From: a bacterium
GTDB lineage: Bacteria > UBA9089 > CG2-30-40-21 > SBAY01
NCBI GenBank assembly: GCA_040757115.1
Contig: JBFLYA010000059.1
Coordinates: 2,539 to 19,159 of the forward strand
Reading direction: 5' to 3'
DNA: 16,621 nt
The position numbers and the translations under genes were made by a program. Positions 3,109-9,530 of this stretch are shown one piece after another. The notes below the pieces were generated by a model that searched no databases, was not told the DNA's origin, and saw only the letters and a program-made list of their open reading frames with translations. Position 1 is the first letter of the stretch. Every line of letters starts with the position of its first letter.

Positions 3109-3117
3109 GCTTCTTAA

Positions 3118-3358
3118 AACTGGGTAAGAGCATTATTTTTGATTATTCTCCTTATCTCTTCAAGTCTCTTTGGAAATATAGCCCAATTGTGTTATGAGGA
3201 TTCAATTGCTTTGACTATCAGCACCATGGCTAAGAATAATGCTATTGCTCTTGCCTTAGCCACATCAGCCTTTGGTGCAGAAAACAGCATTAGCCATTGC
3301 TATTGTCGGCCCATTGGTTCAACTTCCTATTATGCTATTTAAGGCTAAGGGATGTTAA
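3118..3358 (+). pseudogene. Frameshifted 3' remnant of a bile acid:sodium symporter/ACR3-like permease
   Basis: From 3118 the frame encodes a hydrophobic segment (LFLIILLISSSLFGN), then SIALTISTMAKNNAIALALA and SAFGAE. Near 3288-3292 the frame changes by +1 and continues as ALAIAIVGPLVQLPIMLF, ending at TAA 3356-3358. This resembles the last helices of BASS/ACR3-superfamily transporters, where the segment after 'KNNAIALALA' is a discontinuous transport helix and 'VGPLVQLPIML' is the last helix. Only about 80 codons remain of a protein normally above 300, and they are frameshifted, so it is dead. It lies just upstream of the arsenic genes, so it may be the remains of their efflux pump; the exact substrate class is inference. 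Confidence 0.5.
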
Positions 3359-3496
3359 GAAGATTCATCACTAATGATGTTACTATAAAAGAAAACTGTA
3401 AAAAGGTGAAGAGCTGGATGGGGTTTTAGCATTGGCGGGTGAATGAGACCGTTCAGGACTTAAGACTGAAATAAATGCATTTTTAACAAAAAGATC
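3359..3496. other. Noncoding DNA upstream of the first arsR promoter
   Basis: Only very short open frames are present, none with family motifs. A frame starting at 3352 inside the permease stop gives 25 codons ending at 3429 and is not convincing. The segment may be further debris of the decayed permease operon. Confidence 0.35.
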
Positions 3497-3525
3497 TTGA
3501 CAAATGGTTTTTATTTGTGTATAAT
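3497..3525 (+). promoter_or_regulatory. Consensus sigma-70 promoter of the first arsR
   Basis: TTGACA at 3497-3502, a 17-bp spacer and TATAAT at 3520-3525, both hexamers perfect. An imperfect dyad (AAGTGTAT...ATACTT, about 3528-3547) lies just downstream of the -10, where an ArsR repressor would block transcription. A promoter this strong needs repression, which fits autoregulation by the ArsR it precedes. Confidence 0.8.
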
Positions 3526-3570
3526 ATAAGTGTATGCTAAAATACTTTAATAAATTATGGAGAATGTGTT

Positions 3571-3870
3571 ATGAAAGAATCAGCAGAACTATTTAAACTT
3601 TTATCGGTGGATAAAAGAATAGAAATAATTGAGTGCCTTAAAAAAAATGATATGAATGTAAATGCGTTAGCTGAGAATTTAGGAATAACCCAGTCGGCGG
3701 TCTCTCAACACTTAAGGGTTTTGAAAGCAGCCGGGTTTGTAAAAGATGAGCGAAAGGGTTACTGGATTTATTACACCTTAAATCGTAATGTATTAGAAAA
3801 CTGCCGACAGAGATTGAATAGAATATGTACCTGTGGTTGTTTAGAGAGAGTAAAACATAATAAAGTGTAA
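3571..3870 (+). CDS. ArsR/SmtB-family repressor with a C-terminal CTCGC motif
   Basis: A 99-residue winged-helix repressor. Helices of the ArsR fold are clear: FKLLSVDKRIEIIECL, then the recognition region LGITQSAVSQHLRVLKAAG (about 37-55), and the wing KGYWIYYTL. The usual ELCVCDL metal site of ArsR is absent (here DMNVNAL at 27-33). Cysteines are instead at 22, 78 and in CTCGC (86-90) at the end, so the inducer is probably bound by the C-terminal helix, as in some alternative ArsR sensors. ATG at 3571 has GGAG 8-11 bases upstream. It follows a perfect promoter and precedes the 58-aa cysteine-rich gene, probably co-transcribed. Whether it senses As(III) or another thiophilic ion cannot be told. 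Confidence 0.85.
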   Translation: MKESAELFKLLSVDKRIEIIECLKKNDMNVNALAENLGITQSAVSQHLRVLKAAGFVKDERKGYWIYYTLNRNVLENCRQRLNRICTCGCLERVKHNKV

Positions 3871-3948
3871 AAAATAAGGAAGGTTTATATTTTTTTCCTA
3901 AATATATAAGTAAATGAGCATAAACTAATAAAAAGGAGGTGATTAAAA

Positions 3949-4125
3949 ATGTGTGGTGAAAGCGACATCAAGTGCGAAGTAAAGGTAATTGAACTTAAAG
4001 ATGGCTATCAAGTTCAAATTACCGGCGCCAGGGTAAAAGATGCACTTAAGCCAGAGAATCTGAAGAAGTGCATAAAAGCTTGTTGCTGTGGCGAAGCACC
4101 ATTTAAAGACATCTGTTGTCGTTAG
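3949..4125 (+). CDS. 58-aa cysteine-rich small protein in the arsenic cluster
   Basis: A short gene with an exemplary ribosome binding site: AAAGGAGGTGAT, then 6 bases to the ATG. It encodes 58 residues with eight cysteines: Cys2, Cys9, Cys41, a Cys45-46-47 triplet and Cys56-57, the last four residues being ICCR. The middle (VKVIELKDGYQVQITGARVKDAL) looks like two beta strands and a turn, and the C-terminal third is a cysteine-dense helix. I do not recognise the family. The cysteine clusters suggest binding of As(III) or another soft metal, i.e. a sequestering peptide or chaperone. It sits between two ArsR genes, 78 bases after the first and before a strong hairpin, so it should be induced with the first repressor. 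Function is inference; the reading frame is strongly supported. Confidence 0.75.
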   Translation: MCGESDIKCEVKVIELKDGYQVQITGARVKDALKPENLKKCIKACCCGEAPFKDICCR

Positions 4126-4135
4126 GTGGTTAAAT

Positions 4136-4170
4136 TCTGGGCGGTCTTAAGAGATTTGAGGCCGCCCAGA
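4136..4170 (+). terminator. Strong hairpin after the cysteine-rich gene
   Basis: TCTGGGCGG (4136-4144) pairs with CCGCCCAGA (4162-4170), and the stem continues inward TCTTAA/TTGAGG with two G-U pairs, giving 15 bp around a 5-base loop (4151-4155). The following TGAATTAAATTT is U-containing but not a clean U-run, so it is either a moderate intrinsic terminator or an mRNA-stabilising 3' end. It separates the first arsR unit from the second promoter. Confidence 0.65.
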
Positions 4171-4203
4171 TGAATTAAATTTAGGGGGGAATCAAAAAAA
4201 ACC

Positions 4204-4261
4204 TTGACAAGATAAAATTTTTGTGTTAGAATATAGACAATTGTAAATATGTATAAATATT
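4204..4261 (+). promoter_or_regulatory. Promoter and candidate operator of the second arsR operon
   Basis: TTGACA at 4204-4209, 17-bp spacer, TAGAAT at 4227-4232 (one mismatch to consensus). Downstream, the AT-rich dyad AATAT-N6-ATATT at 4246-4261 lies between the start point and the GGAGG of the gene at 4273; ArsR-family operators are typically such AT-rich inverted repeats. Confidence 0.7.
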
Positions 4262-4272
4262 GGAGGGCTTAA

Positions 4273-4593
4273 ATGGGAAAATGTGAGAATTTTTTCAAGG
4301 CATTATCGGATGAGACAAGAGTCCACATCTTAAAGATGCTGGAAGAAAAAGAAATGTGTGTCTCTGATATAGGGGAGGCTTTTGAGGTATCCCAGCCTAC
4401 CATCTCTCATCATCTGGATATTTTAAAGCGAGCAGGACTGGTAAAATCAAAGAGAAAGGGACAGAATATTTACTATTCCTTGAATAAGGATTGGCTGAAG
4501 GAATGCTGTGGCGATTTTCTCTCAATGTTTGAATGCTGTCTGGATTTTTTAAAAAACTATAAAATTGTAAAAAAAGGAGGTGATAAAGAATGA
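4273..4593 (+). CDS. arsR: ArsR-family repressor with alternative cysteine pairs
   Basis: A 106-residue winged-helix repressor: FFKALSDETRVHILKMLEEKEMCVSDI, recognition helix FEVSQPTISHHLDILKRAGLV (about 37-57), and wing KGQNIYYSL. It keeps one cysteine (29) at the position of the classical CVC metal site, and adds Cys4 and C-terminal pairs Cys78-79 and Cys88-89. Three-coordinate As(III) binding by Cys29 with the C-terminal cysteines is plausible. GGAGG (4262-4266) precedes the ATG. The TGA overlaps the next ATG as ATGA, and the ribosome binding site of the next gene lies inside this gene's final codons, so translation is coupled to the AhpD-like gene. It is the likely local regulator of the methylation operon. 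Confidence 0.88.
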   Translation: MGKCENFFKALSDETRVHILKMLEEKEMCVSDIGEAFEVSQPTISHHLDILKRAGLVKSKRKGQNIYYSLNKDWLKECCGDFLSMFECCLDFLKNYKIVKKGGDKE

Positions 4594-4859
4594 GCGGATG
4601 CTGTGTTTCTGAAGAAGAGAGAATAGAGAATCTAATTTCTCTTGCCATAGTCATCGGGGTAGGGTGTAAGCCTTGCACCAAATTTTACATTGATAAGGCG
4701 TTGAAAGAGGGTTGTTCTAAGGAAGACCTAAAGAAGGTTATATCAATAGCCGAGTCTTTGGAGAAGTCTGAATGCCTGCGTAAGGCCGTGAGAGAAGAAA
4801 ATGCAGACAGGATGAAAGAGCCTCTTAAAATAGCAAAAGAGCTATTGGAGGCAAAATAA
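4590..4859 (+). CDS. AhpD/carboxymuconolactone decarboxylase-like CxxC protein
   Basis: An 89-residue protein resembling the core of the AhpD/CMD family: SLAIVIGVGCKPCTKFYIDKAL is the hydrophobic helix followed by the CxxC (Cys26, Cys29) that is the redox dithiol of AhpD-type alkylhydroperoxidases; the second helical part is KEDLKKVISIAESL. Extra cysteines lie at 4-5 (GCC), 42 and 61. The family histidine downstream of CxxC is not evident. Such small CMD proteins often accompany arsenic genes, where they may act as a thiol reductant for arsenicals. The start overlaps the arsR stop (ATGA), with AAAGGAGGTGAT 6 bases upstream. Family assignment is good; the specific role is inference. Confidence 0.75.
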   Translation: MSGCCVSEEERIENLISLAIVIGVGCKPCTKFYIDKALKEGCSKEDLKKVISIAESLEKSECLRKAVREENADRMKEPLKIAKELLEAK

Positions 4860-4875
4860 TATGGAGGTGATAGCG

Positions 4876-5085
4876 ATGAATTGCAAAAGATTTTTGGCGT
4901 TTATTTCCTCTGTTTGTCCAATGTGCAACATTAAAAGGAAATTTCCCCATTCTTCCTTTGCCAGGATGATAAAAAAGGGTGAAAAATTCTGTCCTTGTTG
5001 TAAAGCCTATGAGGAAATCTATAGAAAAATGGGTGATAAAAATGAAGAAGAACAAAATACAAAAGATTGTAGAAGAAGCCTATAG
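4876..5085 (+). CDS. 69-aa CxxC...CxxC small protein upstream of arsM
   Basis: The frame is open from 4861, but that ATG is part of the ribosome binding site GGAGGTGAT (4863-4871), so ATG at 4876 is the better start. The 69-residue product starts MNCKRFLAF and has CPMC at 14-17 and CPCC at 39-42, with Cys3 and a late Cys65. Two CxxC motifs about 22 residues apart suggest a zinc-ribbon or an iron/arsenic-binding site; a helical charged tail follows. I do not recognise the family. It begins 16 bases after the AhpD-like gene, and its last 14 codons overlap the start of arsM in another frame, so the two are translationally coupled. That argues for a job linked to ArsM, e.g. delivering As(III) or reducing equivalents. 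Confidence 0.7.
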   Translation: MNCKRFLAFISSVCPMCNIKRKFPHSSFARMIKKGEKFCPCCKAYEEIYRKMGDKNEEEQNTKDCRRSL

Positions 5086-5884
5086 CAAGATTGCCCAAGG
5101 AAAAGAAGGTTGTGGATGTGGCACTTGTGGGCCAAATACCAAAGAGTTTGCCAAATCCATCGGTTATTCTGAAGAAGAATTGAAGGCTATTCCAGAAGAG
5201 GCTAATTTTGCTTTAAGCTGTGGAAATCCGACGGCATTAGCCAACCTCAAAGAAGGTGAAATTGTCCTTGACCTTGGCTGTGGTGCTGGGTTTGATTGCT
5301 TTCTGGCGGCAAGCAAAGTTGGTGCAAATGGCAAGGTTATCGGTGTGGATATGACACCAGAGATGATTGAGAAAGCAAGAAACAATGCAGAAAAGAACAA
5401 GATTGGTAATGTTGAATTCAGGCTCGGTGAGATAGAAAACTTACCTGTAGCAGGTAATTCAGTTGATGTGGTGATGAGTAATTGTGTCATTAATTTATCG
5501 GCTGATAAACCAAAGGTATTTCAGGAAGTTTATCGGGTTTTAAAGCCTGGCGGCAGGATAGCGATTTCGGACATTGCCCTTTTAAAAGAGCTTCCAAAGA
5601 AAATACAGGAAAGCATTGAGGCTTATGTAGGTTGTGTTGCTGGCGCAATTCTAGTTGATGAATACAAAAGGGTTGTTGAAAAAGCAGGGTTAAAGGATGT
5701 TAAAGTCAACATTAAAGACACAGCCTGTATCGACCTGAACACAAAAGATCCCATAGCAAGGGCAATTTGGGATAATTTGGGAGGGACAGAATCTCTAAAA
5801 AACTATGTTGTCAGTGTTTATGTAGAGGGGAAGAAGAGACACAGGTCTAAAGTTACCTGCACAGGTGGAAATCTTTTGCTTTGA
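5042..5884 (+). CDS. arsM: Arsenite S-adenosylmethionine methyltransferase
   Basis: A 280-residue ArsM. It uses SAM and thiols to convert As(III) to methylated, partly volatile arsenicals in the cytoplasm. Visible signatures: an N-terminal cysteine cluster GCGCGTCG (22-30), LSCGNPTA with Cys60, SAM motif I VLDLGCGAGFD (75-85), VIGVDMTPEMI, SNCVINLSADK (Cys148) and EAYVGCVAGAI (Cys198). Cys60 and Cys198 correspond to two of the arsenic-binding cysteines known in the family; Cys229 may be the third. The open frame reaches back to 4979, but ATG at 5042, behind GGTGAT, fits the family start. The protein's natural end should be near VYVEGKK; the last 15 or so residues (RHRSKVTCTGG...) come from repeat/operator-like DNA and look acquired. 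The stop codon lies inside the next promoter's -35. Confidence 0.93.
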   Translation: MKKNKIQKIVEEAYSKIAQGKEGCGCGTCGPNTKEFAKSIGYSEEELKAIPEEANFALSCGNPTALANLKEGEIVLDLGCGAGFDCFLAASKVGANGKVIGVDMTPEMIEKARNNAEKNKIGNVEFRLGEIENLPVAGNSVDVVMSNCVINLSADKPKVFQEVYRVLKPGGRIAISDIALLKELPKKIQESIEAYVGCVAGAILVDEYKRVVEKAGLKDVKVNIKDTACIDLNTKDPIARAIWDNLGGTESLKNYVVSVYVEGKKRHRSKVTCTGGNLLL

Positions 5885-5909
5885 CAAAATGGTGATTGTC
5901 TGGTATAAT
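5881..5909 (+). promoter_or_regulatory. Consensus promoter of the AbiEii-like toxin-antitoxin pair
   Basis: TTGACA (5881-5886), 17-bp spacer, TATAAT (5904-5909), both perfect. The TGA of arsM (5882-5884) is part of the -35. Just upstream are CAGGT (5842-5846) and the palindrome ACCTGCACAGGT (5855-5866), a candidate operator that also occurs, rearranged, before the ATPase gene. Confidence 0.8.
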
Positions 5910-5936
5910 CTGGTGAGAGAGAGGATGGTGGAATTA

Positions 5937-6203
5937 ATGAATTATCTTAAGGCAGTTTTTTGGGATTATCCACAATTTACCAATAAAGAAAATCTAAAAA
6001 AATACCTTCAAGAGGAAAAAAACTCCAGTTCATATCTATGGATATTAAAGAGATTTCTTGAATATGGCAGGGTTATTGATACGATAACCTATTTCAAAAT
6101 AGATGAAATAGCTCAACAATTACATAATCTAAAACTAACACCTTATACTTATAGAAAATGGACGAGGATGATTGAAGTTTATGGAAAACCTCATAGAAAA
6201 TAA
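5937..6203 (+). CDS. Putative antitoxin/partner of the AbiEii-like nucleotidyltransferase
   Basis: An 88-residue protein starting MNYLKAVFWDYPQF. The pattern 'L-x-x-x-FWDY... ILKRFLEYGRVIDTI' followed by a helical C-terminus (TYRKWTRMIEVYGKP) is like the small DUF6922-type proteins found directly before AbiEii/nucleotidyltransferase toxin genes, which are presumed antitoxins with a DNA-binding role. The frame is open from 5865, but that start lies upstream of the promoter at 5881-5909, so the real start must be at 5925 or 5937; 5937 is chosen because GGTGG lies 5 bases before it. The 3' end overlaps the toxin gene by 23 bases, implying coupling. Family assignment is moderate. Confidence 0.65.
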   Translation: MNYLKAVFWDYPQFTNKENLKKYLQEEKNSSSYLWILKRFLEYGRVIDTITYFKIDEIAQQLHNLKLTPYTYRKWTRMIEVYGKPHRK

Positions 6204-6870
6204 AAACTATTATGCCTCACAAACACAACGGGAAATATTACTTCAGCTTATGACACATCCGACGATAGAGGAATCTTTCTTTTTGACCGGTGGTACAGCT
6301 CTTGCGGTATTCTATCTACACCATAGAGTATCGGAGGATTTGGATTTCTTTACACTTCATTCCTTAGACCTGGCTGAAATAGACTTTTGGATAAGGAGAA
6401 TGTGGCCACAAAATGGTATTAAAATCAAAGAAAGTCCAAACTTTCTCTCGTATCTGATAAATGAAATAAAGGTTGATTTTGTTATTGATTCACTCTCAAA
6501 CAAAGAAAACAGGCAAAAGGTTTTATTGGAAAACAAGCACTATCTTTTAGTTGATACGATTAATAATATCTTTTCTAATAAGTTCTGTACCATTGCCAGT
6601 AGAACAGAACCCAAGGACTTTATTGATTTTTACTTTATACACCGTTCGTTTCCCCGGGAGGATATGGACAAGTTGTATCATAGTGCCAGAATGAAAGATG
6701 CCATCTTTGAGGATCCTCCTACTGTATCTTTTCAAATAGAAGAAGGGCTTGCTTTTTTAATGAAAAATCAAGCAATCTTCCCTCAAATATTCAGAGATTT
6801 TGACCTGGACGATTTTCTTAAATTTTATAAGGAAATTATTAACTGGCTATACCAACTGGTAAAGATATAG
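6181..6870 (+). CDS. AbiEii/AbiGii-type nucleotidyltransferase toxin
   Basis: A 229-residue nucleotidyltransferase. FFLTGGTALAVFYLHHRVSEDLDFF (residues 33-57) is the GG-T...hRxSxDLD signature of AbiEii-type DNA-polymerase-beta-fold enzymes, with Asp53 and Asp55 as the metal ligands. KVDFVI (about 96-101) supplies the third acidic strand, and RTEPKDFIDFYFI is the K-D motif of the family. Characterised relatives act as toxins that add nucleotides to tRNA or other targets and give phage protection by abortive infection. TTG at 6172 is an alternative start; ATG at 6181 is preferred, with GAGGATGATTG upstream. It overlaps the preceding small gene by 23 bases and is transcribed from the promoter at 5881. 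The length is near that of solo family members and all motifs are intact. Confidence 0.85.
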   Translation: MENLIENKNYYASQTQREILLQLMTHPTIEESFFLTGGTALAVFYLHHRVSEDLDFFTLHSLDLAEIDFWIRRMWPQNGIKIKESPNFLSYLINEIKVDFVIDSLSNKENRQKVLLENKHYLLVDTINNIFSNKFCTIASRTEPKDFIDFYFIHRSFPREDMDKLYHSARMKDAIFEDPPTVSFQIEEGLAFLMKNQAIFPQIFRDFDLDDFLKFYKEIINWLYQLVKI

Positions 6871-8521: not shown

Positions 8522-8602
8522 ATGACACAAACAACATATTTACCAAAAGATTATGAACTATTCATTGGGCTAGTACCCTGTCTCTATTCAATTGATGGAT
8601 AA
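8522..8602 (+). pseudogene. First codons of an IS110-family transposase, interrupted by an insertion
   Basis: ATG at 8522 behind AAGGAGGACAAACTT encodes MTQTTYLPKDYELFIGL, which looks like the start of an IS110-family transposase, where 'FIGLDVxK' begins the RuvC-like DEDD domain with its first Asp. Here the sequence is cut right after GL (8572): the next codons (VPCLYSIDG, stop at 8600-8602) belong to the inserted IS630-type DNA. The remaining 300 or more codons are not found after the insertion, so the element was deleted as well as interrupted. Family identity rests on a short match and is moderate. Confidence 0.5.
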
Positions 8603-9530
8603 AGTCGCTTCAACTTAATCCGGGCATCTGGGGTTGTAAATTGCCACTTCACTTTAGCCTCTACCTTGTTCCTATCTGATTTCCAAGATGCCACCTCCCT
8701 TTTCATCTCAGAAATGTTTTCGATTCTTCGTGACAAACACTGTTCGCTCAGAACACTTAATTCTATCTCTGCCATATTCAGCCAACTGCCATGCTTTGGC
8801 GTGTGGTGAATCTCCAGGCGATCCGCAATACGCTTTGCTTCGCCAGGTTCAAACAGTTCGTACAAAGACGCTGGTGTATGCGTATTAAGGTTGTCTATTA
8901 CCAAAACAATCTTTTGGCTTTCTGGATATTTCTCTTCAACCAGATTGCGGATGAACTTAGCAAAATCGACTTTTGTGCGGTGTTCGGTCACTTCCACATG
9001 TCTTTTGCCAGCCAACGGTTCAAACGCCATAAACAGATTAGCAACGCCATTGCGTCTATACTCGTGGTCATACCTGAGCGGCTGTCCAGGTTCTGCTGGG
9101 ATTGGCTTGCGTATCTCGCCAATCAATTGTCTGCACAACTCGTCTAAACATACCATTGGACGCAGCGGATCATAAGGCCGTTTGTACACATCTAAAACAT
9201 CTTCCATTCGCCAAACAAATTCTGCATTAGCTTGAGGCGGAATACACCATTGTTTGCTTAACCAAGGTTTAATTTCGTTTTTTTAAAGTGCGATGCACGG
9301 TGTCCTTAGATACCGAATCGATATACTCTAATGTAACCATCCTCTCTGCAAGCAATCTCAGTGTCCATCGACTGCGACCTTCTGGTGGCTCGTTGCAGGC
9401 CAGAGCAACCAGATGAACTTCAGCGTCGCCATCAATCTTTCGCCGATATTCACGCCGTGGCATCCTGCGTCCCAGGGCTGCTTCCAAACCTTCTTCTAGA
9501 GGGTCGGACCTATTCTAACCCCGCATCAGA
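8573..9530 (-). mobile_element. Truncated IS630-family insertion sequence
   Basis: The left boundary is sharp: the apparent IS110 coding sequence ends in ...GGGCTA at 8572 and the inserted DNA starts GTACCCTGTC, consistent with the TA target of IS630/Tc1 elements. The transposase is encoded on the minus strand with its stop close to this end, as usual for IS630. The other end is not clean: the transposase frame is lost at about 9520 in a stop-containing stretch, the N-terminal helix-turn-helix half is missing, and no inverted copy of the left terminus is found. A short dyad GTAGGATT...AATCCTAC (9532-9583) follows. The element cannot move by itself. Confidence 0.65.
8584..9487 (-). pseudogene. 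IS630-family transposase, 5'-truncated and frameshifted
   Basis: Two minus-strand frames make one transposase. The upstream part (9487-9269) reads MPRREYRRKIDGDAEVHLVALAC..., then WTLRLLAERMVTLEYIDSVSKDTVHRTLKK. The downstream part continues as NEIKPWLSKQWCIPP...MEDVLDVYKRPYDP and holds the DDE triad: VCLDE (first Asp), VLVIDNLNTH (second Asp) and GSWLNMAEIE (Glu). The frame changes at an A7 run (complement of T7 at 9278-9284): losing one A, or gaining two, restores a TLK(K)NEIKPWL junction. This could be a mutation or A-run slippage of the kind known in some IS630 elements. About 100 N-terminal residues, including the HTH, are missing, so it is inactive even if the shift is bypassed. Confidence 0.75.

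Follow-up and report, generated by a model that had tools for sequence, protein, structure and literature searches.

A small cysteine-rich protein family recurrently encoded next to ArsR-type repressors in distant uncultured bacteria

Described repressor–metallothionein systems and the locus

Proteins of the ArsR/SmtB family repress their target genes and release them upon binding a metal or metalloid, while some subfamilies sense sulfur species instead. ArsD, a small protein with cysteines for As(III), is also under ArsR control. Two described systems are organized as an ArsR/SmtB repressor with a metallothionein: SmtB-SmtA of Synechococcus and BxmR-BmtA of Oscillatoria brevis (PMC8790569). 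The three-cysteine As(III) sites of ArsR proteins include the R773, AfArsR and CgArsR types (PMC11868830).

Herein, we describe a locus that resembles these systems. The window (the whole stretch of 16,621 nucleotides that was analysed) holds, at 3949-4125 on the forward strand, a gene for a cysteine-rich protein of 58 amino acids (MCGESDIKCEVKVIELKDGYQVQITGARVKDALKPENLKKCIKACCCGEAPFKDICCR), hereafter the peptide. As with SmtA and BmtA, a cysteine-rich protein of about 55–60 amino acids adjoins an ArsR/SmtB protein by which, judging from the sequence, it is apparently repressed, and operator-like repeats lie beside the small gene. The organization matches that of BxmR-BmtA and, less closely, that of SmtB-SmtA; smtB and smtA are divergent (PMC8790569), whereas the arsR and peptide genes are co-directional here. 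The peptide itself is unrelated in sequence to SmtA and BmtA, has no Pfam or NCBIfam metallothionein match, and carries vicinal CC and CxxxCC motifs rather than repeated CxC. It also departs from the SmtB and BxmR systems in its predicted fold, a beta-hairpin plus helix, and in its ArsR partners, which have Cys-rich candidate sites. ArsD is similar in being a small Cys protein under ArsR control, but the peptide is half as long and matches no Pfam or NCBIfam family, and no ArsA-type ATPase was seen among the peptide neighbours. In the literature on ArsR-regulated small Cys proteins of this kind, only the cyanobacterial metallothionein systems were found.

A conserved family of small proteins

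The sequence-only reading had claimed a protein of 58 amino acids with eight cysteines and a textbook ribosome binding site, and both features were borne out. Translation of the gene places cysteines at positions 2, 9, 41, 45, 46, 47, 56 and 57, so that they are clustered and make up 13.8% (8/58) of the peptide, a size and content in keeping with a metallothionein (about 15%). The extended Shine-Dalgarno sequence (3933-3943, forward strand; AAGGAGGTGAT) is near-perfect, and a similarly strong, AAAGGAGGTGA-like site precedes the peptide start in all 11 family members. When the region 3871-4272 was shuffled 20,000 times, a single shuffle yielded an ATG-initiated ORF this long with at least eight cysteines. 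Among seven close members, dN/dS was 0.04-0.32, and nucleotide differences at the three codon positions numbered 218, 186 and 510, so third positions dominate. The dN/dS values show coding selection, with strong purifying selection on the protein, so the ORF is a genuine gene; a nucleotide pattern devoid of coding conservation, which had been named in advance as evidence against the gene, was not what we found.

Close homologues were searched for in a genome collection of 84,980 species. Five were found, with 74-82% identity, in three Omnitrophota MAGs, one Caldisericota MAG and one unclassified MAG, the last of which holds a second copy (L013). A profile search added distant members in G283 (Omnitrophota), G574, G434 and G599, the latter from the same phylum as the Caldisericota carrier. 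Besides the peptide of the window, the family thus has ten further intact members, spread over four or more lineages, Omnitrophota and Caldisericota among them. The family is rare: it occurs in 4 of 285 Omnitrophota genomes and in 5 of 386 genomes of a broad sample that includes the window's own genome and its congener. No relatives were found on plasmids or viral contigs. One MAG contig end (L015:6310-6622) translates to a familiar sequencing-adapter sequence (FFFFKQKTAYEIYQCDWSSDVCSSDL) and is an assembly artefact.

Ten residues (C9, V13, E15, G19, Y20, I24, G26, K30, C45 and C46) are invariant in all 11 members in alignment A5, and V22, T25, K34 and C56 are present in nearly all; C41 is usually conserved. 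Each member carries 6-8 cysteines, with L013 lacking C2, and the CC and CxxxCC clusters are kept across the alignment. The CCC triplet noted earlier is present in the window (C45-C47), but it is not a family trait: its third cysteine, C47, occurs only there, and the sister genome G001 and other close members have CCS. Likewise, the CC pair described as terminal does exist (C56-C57), but R58 follows it and C57 is variable in the family.

No member gave a convincing match in sequence searches of Pfam, NCBIfam, PHROGs and the PDB. The Pseudomonas and cyanobacterial metallothioneins represented by Pfam Metallothio_Pro are alike in size and Cys content, yet the metallothionein models matched none of the 11 members at E values up to 10. 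The peptide therefore represents an unannotated small-protein family that does not belong to any of the metallothionein families tested. An AlphaFold2 model built from six sequences, of moderate quality (mean pLDDT 74.6), comprises a beta-hairpin (10-16 and 19-25), a helix (35-46) predicted to hold C41, C45 and C46, and a short C-terminal helix. Neither Foldseek nor VIA-align found a similar fold in the PDB for this moderate-quality model, the lowest E value being 2.4 and Z scores never reaching 2.

ArsR linkage and putative operators

The gene upstream of the peptide, arsR1 (3571-3870, forward strand), encodes a 99-aa ArsR/SmtB-family repressor and has a sigma-70 promoter (TTGACA-17-TATAAT, 12/12) at 3497-3525 on the same strand. 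Its C-terminal C86-T-C88-G-C90 is a CxCxC motif whose three cysteines are invariant in five orthologues and exactly match none of the described R773, AfArsR or CgArsR sites. An ArsR-family gene lies directly upstream of the peptide, on the same strand, in 9 of the 11 members. The gap between the two genes is 62-78 bp in eight of these, while in L005 it is 537 bp, the ancestral intergenic stretch being present there but interrupted by an insertion. Conservation next to arsR, which the sequence-only reading had offered as a check, thus holds across distant bacteria, and the prediction survives the opposite outcome that it had named, a lack of homologues near arsenic or metal genes.

Three different ArsR types precede the peptide. 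The first, in the window and in L004, L005, L006 and L007, is ArsR1 with its CxCxC. The second, in G574 and G434, is about 54% identical to the second ArsR of the window, ArsR2, and has C-terminal CC pairs, which in both proteins recall AfArsR (C95, C96, C102). The third, in G283 and G599, has several CC and CxC motifs; in the L014 and L019 proteins of this type, a CxC right before the DNA-recognition region recalls R773. The two members with no adjacent ArsR are L003, in which the peptide follows a sigma-factor-like gene (L003:5305-6177) that replaces arsR1, and L013, which closes a corrinoid methyltransferase operon. The L003 genome does hold an arsR1 orthologue, near the end of another contig and with no peptide alongside. 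A second, N-terminally truncated arsR1 copy is present in the window's own genome (L042, G000 contig 3, 1514-1734; 94% DNA identity over 185 bp).

Beyond ArsR, the peptide neighbours vary from locus to locus. The G574 peptide lies between rho and guaA, the G283 peptide has Hcp among its neighbours, and that of L013 belongs to an mtaCBA-like operon. An acyl-CoA dehydrogenase gene stands beside the peptide in L006 and L007, further downstream in L003, and as a broken copy in L005. The intact copies in L003, L006 and L007 belong to one clade (82-94% identity), and its occurrence after the peptide in different phyla suggests transfer as a block.

Next, we considered whether the peptide has an operator in common with its upstream repressor. 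A matrix was built solely from the arsR1 promoters of L004, L005 and L006, and both strands of the 16.6-kb window were scanned with it. The best match (21.5 bits) was putative operator 1 (3526-3547, reverse strand; AAGTATTTTAGCATACACTTAT), which adjoins the -10 box of the arsR1 promoter. The second (13.9 bits) was putative operator 2 (3908-3929, forward strand; AAGTAAATGAGCATAAACTAAT), directly 5' of the ribosome-binding site of the peptide, while the next unrelated site scored 9.2 bits. None of 300 column-shuffled matrices reached the operator 2 score in the intergenic region. The same second site is the second-best match of the ArsR1 matrix in L004, L005, L006 and L007, and the operator 2 region of the window has 93% DNA identity over 45 bp with that of L005 (Caldisericota), as compared to 71% in arsR1. 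Upstream of operator 2 lies a T-tract (3890-3896, forward strand), and nearly every intergenic region between an ArsR gene and the peptide has a T-run (T5 to T8) in the equivalent position. At operator 2 itself, no promoter matching the consensus was found.

The ArsR type of G574 and G434 has a different motif, and the second-best site of each locus again falls between arsR and the peptide. From the placement of these motifs, each of the two ArsR types therefore appears to have an operator pair, with one site at the promoter of its own gene and the other before the peptide. In a generic comparison of best matches between arsR promoter and intergenic region, L006 and L007 gave a clear signal, L004 a moderate one and the window a weak one (14/200 shuffles); for the window, the matrix derived from other genomes is the decisive test. 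For L014 and L019 the generic comparison was negative, and no common operator was found. We infer that the protein bound at the ArsR1-type sites is ArsR1. An adjacent ArsR in 9 of 11 members, of three types, and a common operator at arsR promoter and peptide for the ArsR1 and G574/G434 types are the features of a gene repressed by an ArsR/SmtB protein.

The peptide had been described as lying between two ArsR repressors. It is indeed flanked by both, but it belongs with arsR1; arsR2 (4273-4593, forward strand) is a neighbour in a separate transcription unit, with a promoter of its own at 4204-4232 (forward strand; TTGACA-17-TAGAAT). ArsR2 carries CC-x8-CC near its C-terminus (C78, C79, C88, C89). 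The window's best match to a matrix of the G574 and G434 arsR promoters is a putative ArsR2-type operator at 4231-4250 (forward strand; ATATAGACAATTGTAAATAT). The peptide was also said to have its own hairpin terminator. A strong stem-loop does follow the stop codon (4137-4169, forward strand), and it recurs in nearly all members. Its shape is conserved with compensatory changes in homologous loci: the stems of the window, G001, L003, L004 and L005 mostly keep their pairing via paired changes, e.g. C-G/G-C to T-A/A-T. The terminator reading was rejected, however, as no T-run follows the stem, here or in most homologous loci, and a terminator scan of the window did not list it.

Further along the forward strand are genes for a CMD/AhpD-like protein (4590-4859; PF02627) and the arsenite methyltransferase ArsM (5042-5884; NF008823, 333.5 bits against a cut-off of 263). 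NCBIfam NF041537 comprises ArsM-AhpD fusion selenoproteins, and the separate genes at 4590-5884 may be the split form of that fusion, with CxxC replacing selenocysteine. A 69-aa protein with CPMC and CPCC motifs, conserved in G001 and without a family match, is encoded between the CMD and arsM genes (4876-5085) and overlaps the start of the latter. The window also contains a perfect TTGACA-17-TATAAT promoter (5881-5909), genes for an AbiEii-like nucleotidyltransferase and a small partner (5865-6870), and a broken DDE_3 (IS630-like) transposase in two frames (8584-9487, reverse strand).

Candidate functions of the peptide

The best reading, to which we assign a probability of roughly 0.6 from comparative sequence evidence, is that the peptide is an ArsR-repressed, thiolate-rich protein that sequesters a soft metal or metalloid. 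The earlier proposal of an inducible, metallothionein-like peptide binding As(III) or another soft metal is thus retained in its general form, since the family is real, linked to ArsR, and has its own ArsR-type operator; its arsenic specificity is unsupported. The peptide would be a small thiolate protein of the cytosol, predicted to fold into a beta-hairpin and a subsequent helix; its conserved cysteines are C9 and C45-C46 and, usually, C41 and C56. Its expression would be under the control of ArsR1, bound to two operators, the first at the arsR1 promoter and the other before the ribosome-binding site of the peptide. Binding of a soft metal(loid), the presumed inducer, at the C-terminal CxCxC of ArsR1 would release both operators. 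Through its very strong ribosome-binding site, the released gene would give an abundant product, which would bind the same metal(loid) with its clustered thiols, presumably affording protection. With such a site and such thiols, stoichiometric sequestration is the simplest role. The Cys-rich candidate sites of the partner ArsRs indicate a thiophilic inducer, probably As(III), Sb(III), Cd, Pb, Hg or Cu(I).

The sister genome G001 also argues for sequestration under ArsR1. There, between flanks about 90% identical to those of the window, arsR1 is deleted; the peptide has lost about 40 bp between two ATCAAGT repeats, which shifts its frame, and carries a C2 to Y replacement. The joint loss is one event in one MAG assembly. 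Against sequestration count the two members of 11 with no adjacent ArsR and the 6-8 cysteines, which are modest for a metallothionein. Further points against it are that some ArsR proteins respond to sulfur species, that operator 2 showed no consensus promoter through which ArsR1 would act, and that L014 and L019 gave no common operator.

Arsenic is a possible target of the peptide. The ArsR2-type motif precedes the operon of arsM in the window and the peptide in G574 and G434, a placement that hints at arsenic. Upstream of arsR1 lies a frame-broken, degenerate remnant of an ACR3/SBF-type permease (3111-3365, forward strand); its counterpart in G001 (L002:1173-1472) is recognizable by matches to acr3 (E 0.0013) and SBF (E 0.0002), and the two genomes present two states of decay. 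An intact ACR3 was found in neither. In seven of the 11 genomes searched, an intact ACR3 lies away from the peptide, and no peptide was found beside it; the other four, the window's genome among them, have none. No recurrent linkage of the peptide to arsM, ACR3, ArsB or ArsC was found. Conservation next to arsM, also suggested as a check, failed as well, arsM adjoining the peptide in the window only. A more specific version is put forward as tentative: the peptide would belong to a new bacterial family that sequesters As(III) or methylarsenite and has an origin separate from that of the known metallothioneins, and three or more different thiolate-sensing ArsRs would have recruited it, two of them duplicating their operator in front of it.

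The peptide may instead be a metallochaperone, which would hand As(III) or some other metal(loid) on to ArsM, an exporter or ArsR rather than storing it. The small number of cysteines and the predicted fold would be closer to a chaperone than to a classical metallothionein, and arsM lies in the next transcription unit. However, no peptide was found at the ACR3 loci of seven genomes, and no partner other than ArsR recurs widely. The neighbouring enzyme or exporter changes by locus: the window alone has arsM, L006 and L007 share the acyl-CoA dehydrogenase, and the G574 peptide sits between rho and guaA. Delivery is on these grounds rather unlikely. The arsenic-chaperone role proposed earlier is thereby not upheld, and its ArsM version was demoted because arsM is no recurrent neighbour.

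BigR and SqrR are sensors with a two-Cys site. If the partner ArsR sensed a persulfide or an oxidant in a similar manner, the vicinal cysteines of the peptide could carry sulfane sulfur or buffer redox. ArsR1 does match the sulfur-sensing BigR, weakly and far below the cut-off; a DsrE gene and a NifS-TusA fusion lie downstream of the peptide in L003, and a C_GCAxxG_C_C redox protein and the CxxC CMD protein are encoded nearby in the window. We consider a thiol-redox or reactive-sulfur function improbable, as sulfur-transfer genes stand beside only 1 of the 11 members, and the clustered cysteines of the partner ArsRs (CxCxC, CC...CC) resemble three-thiolate metal(loid) sites, unlike the two-Cys site of BigR and SqrR.

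There is little to favour an accessory role with corrinoid or zinc methyltransferases, to which the ArsR linkage would be secondary. It is modelled on L013, whose start lies 21 bp downstream of a gene for a UROD-type methyltransferase, with genes for a corrinoid protein and a methyltransferase further upstream (mtaC-mtaB-mtaA-like), but this is one member of 11, the one without C2, and no such genes lie beside the peptide at any other locus. Finally, a short ORF followed by a stem-loop could be a chance ORF, a reading already refuted by dN/dS, or a leader or attenuator of arsR2, but strong purifying selection, protein conservation across phyla and the promoter at arsR2 itself make either negligible.

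A small Cys protein that recurs with ArsR regulators across distant uncultured lineages is of interest because gene callers and family libraries miss such short proteins. If it does sequester a soft metal(loid), the family would be a second solution, with a different fold, to the problem solved by SmtB-SmtA, and it would supply a search rule: scan for unannotated ORFs that are separated from an arsR gene by an additional operator. In G434, that rule already reveals another small protein. On contig 19 of that genome (L036, 1281-1788), an arsR1 orthologue is followed by an ArsR1-type operator and then by genes for a different, basic 57-aa CGCGC peptide and for a membrane protein resembling CopD.
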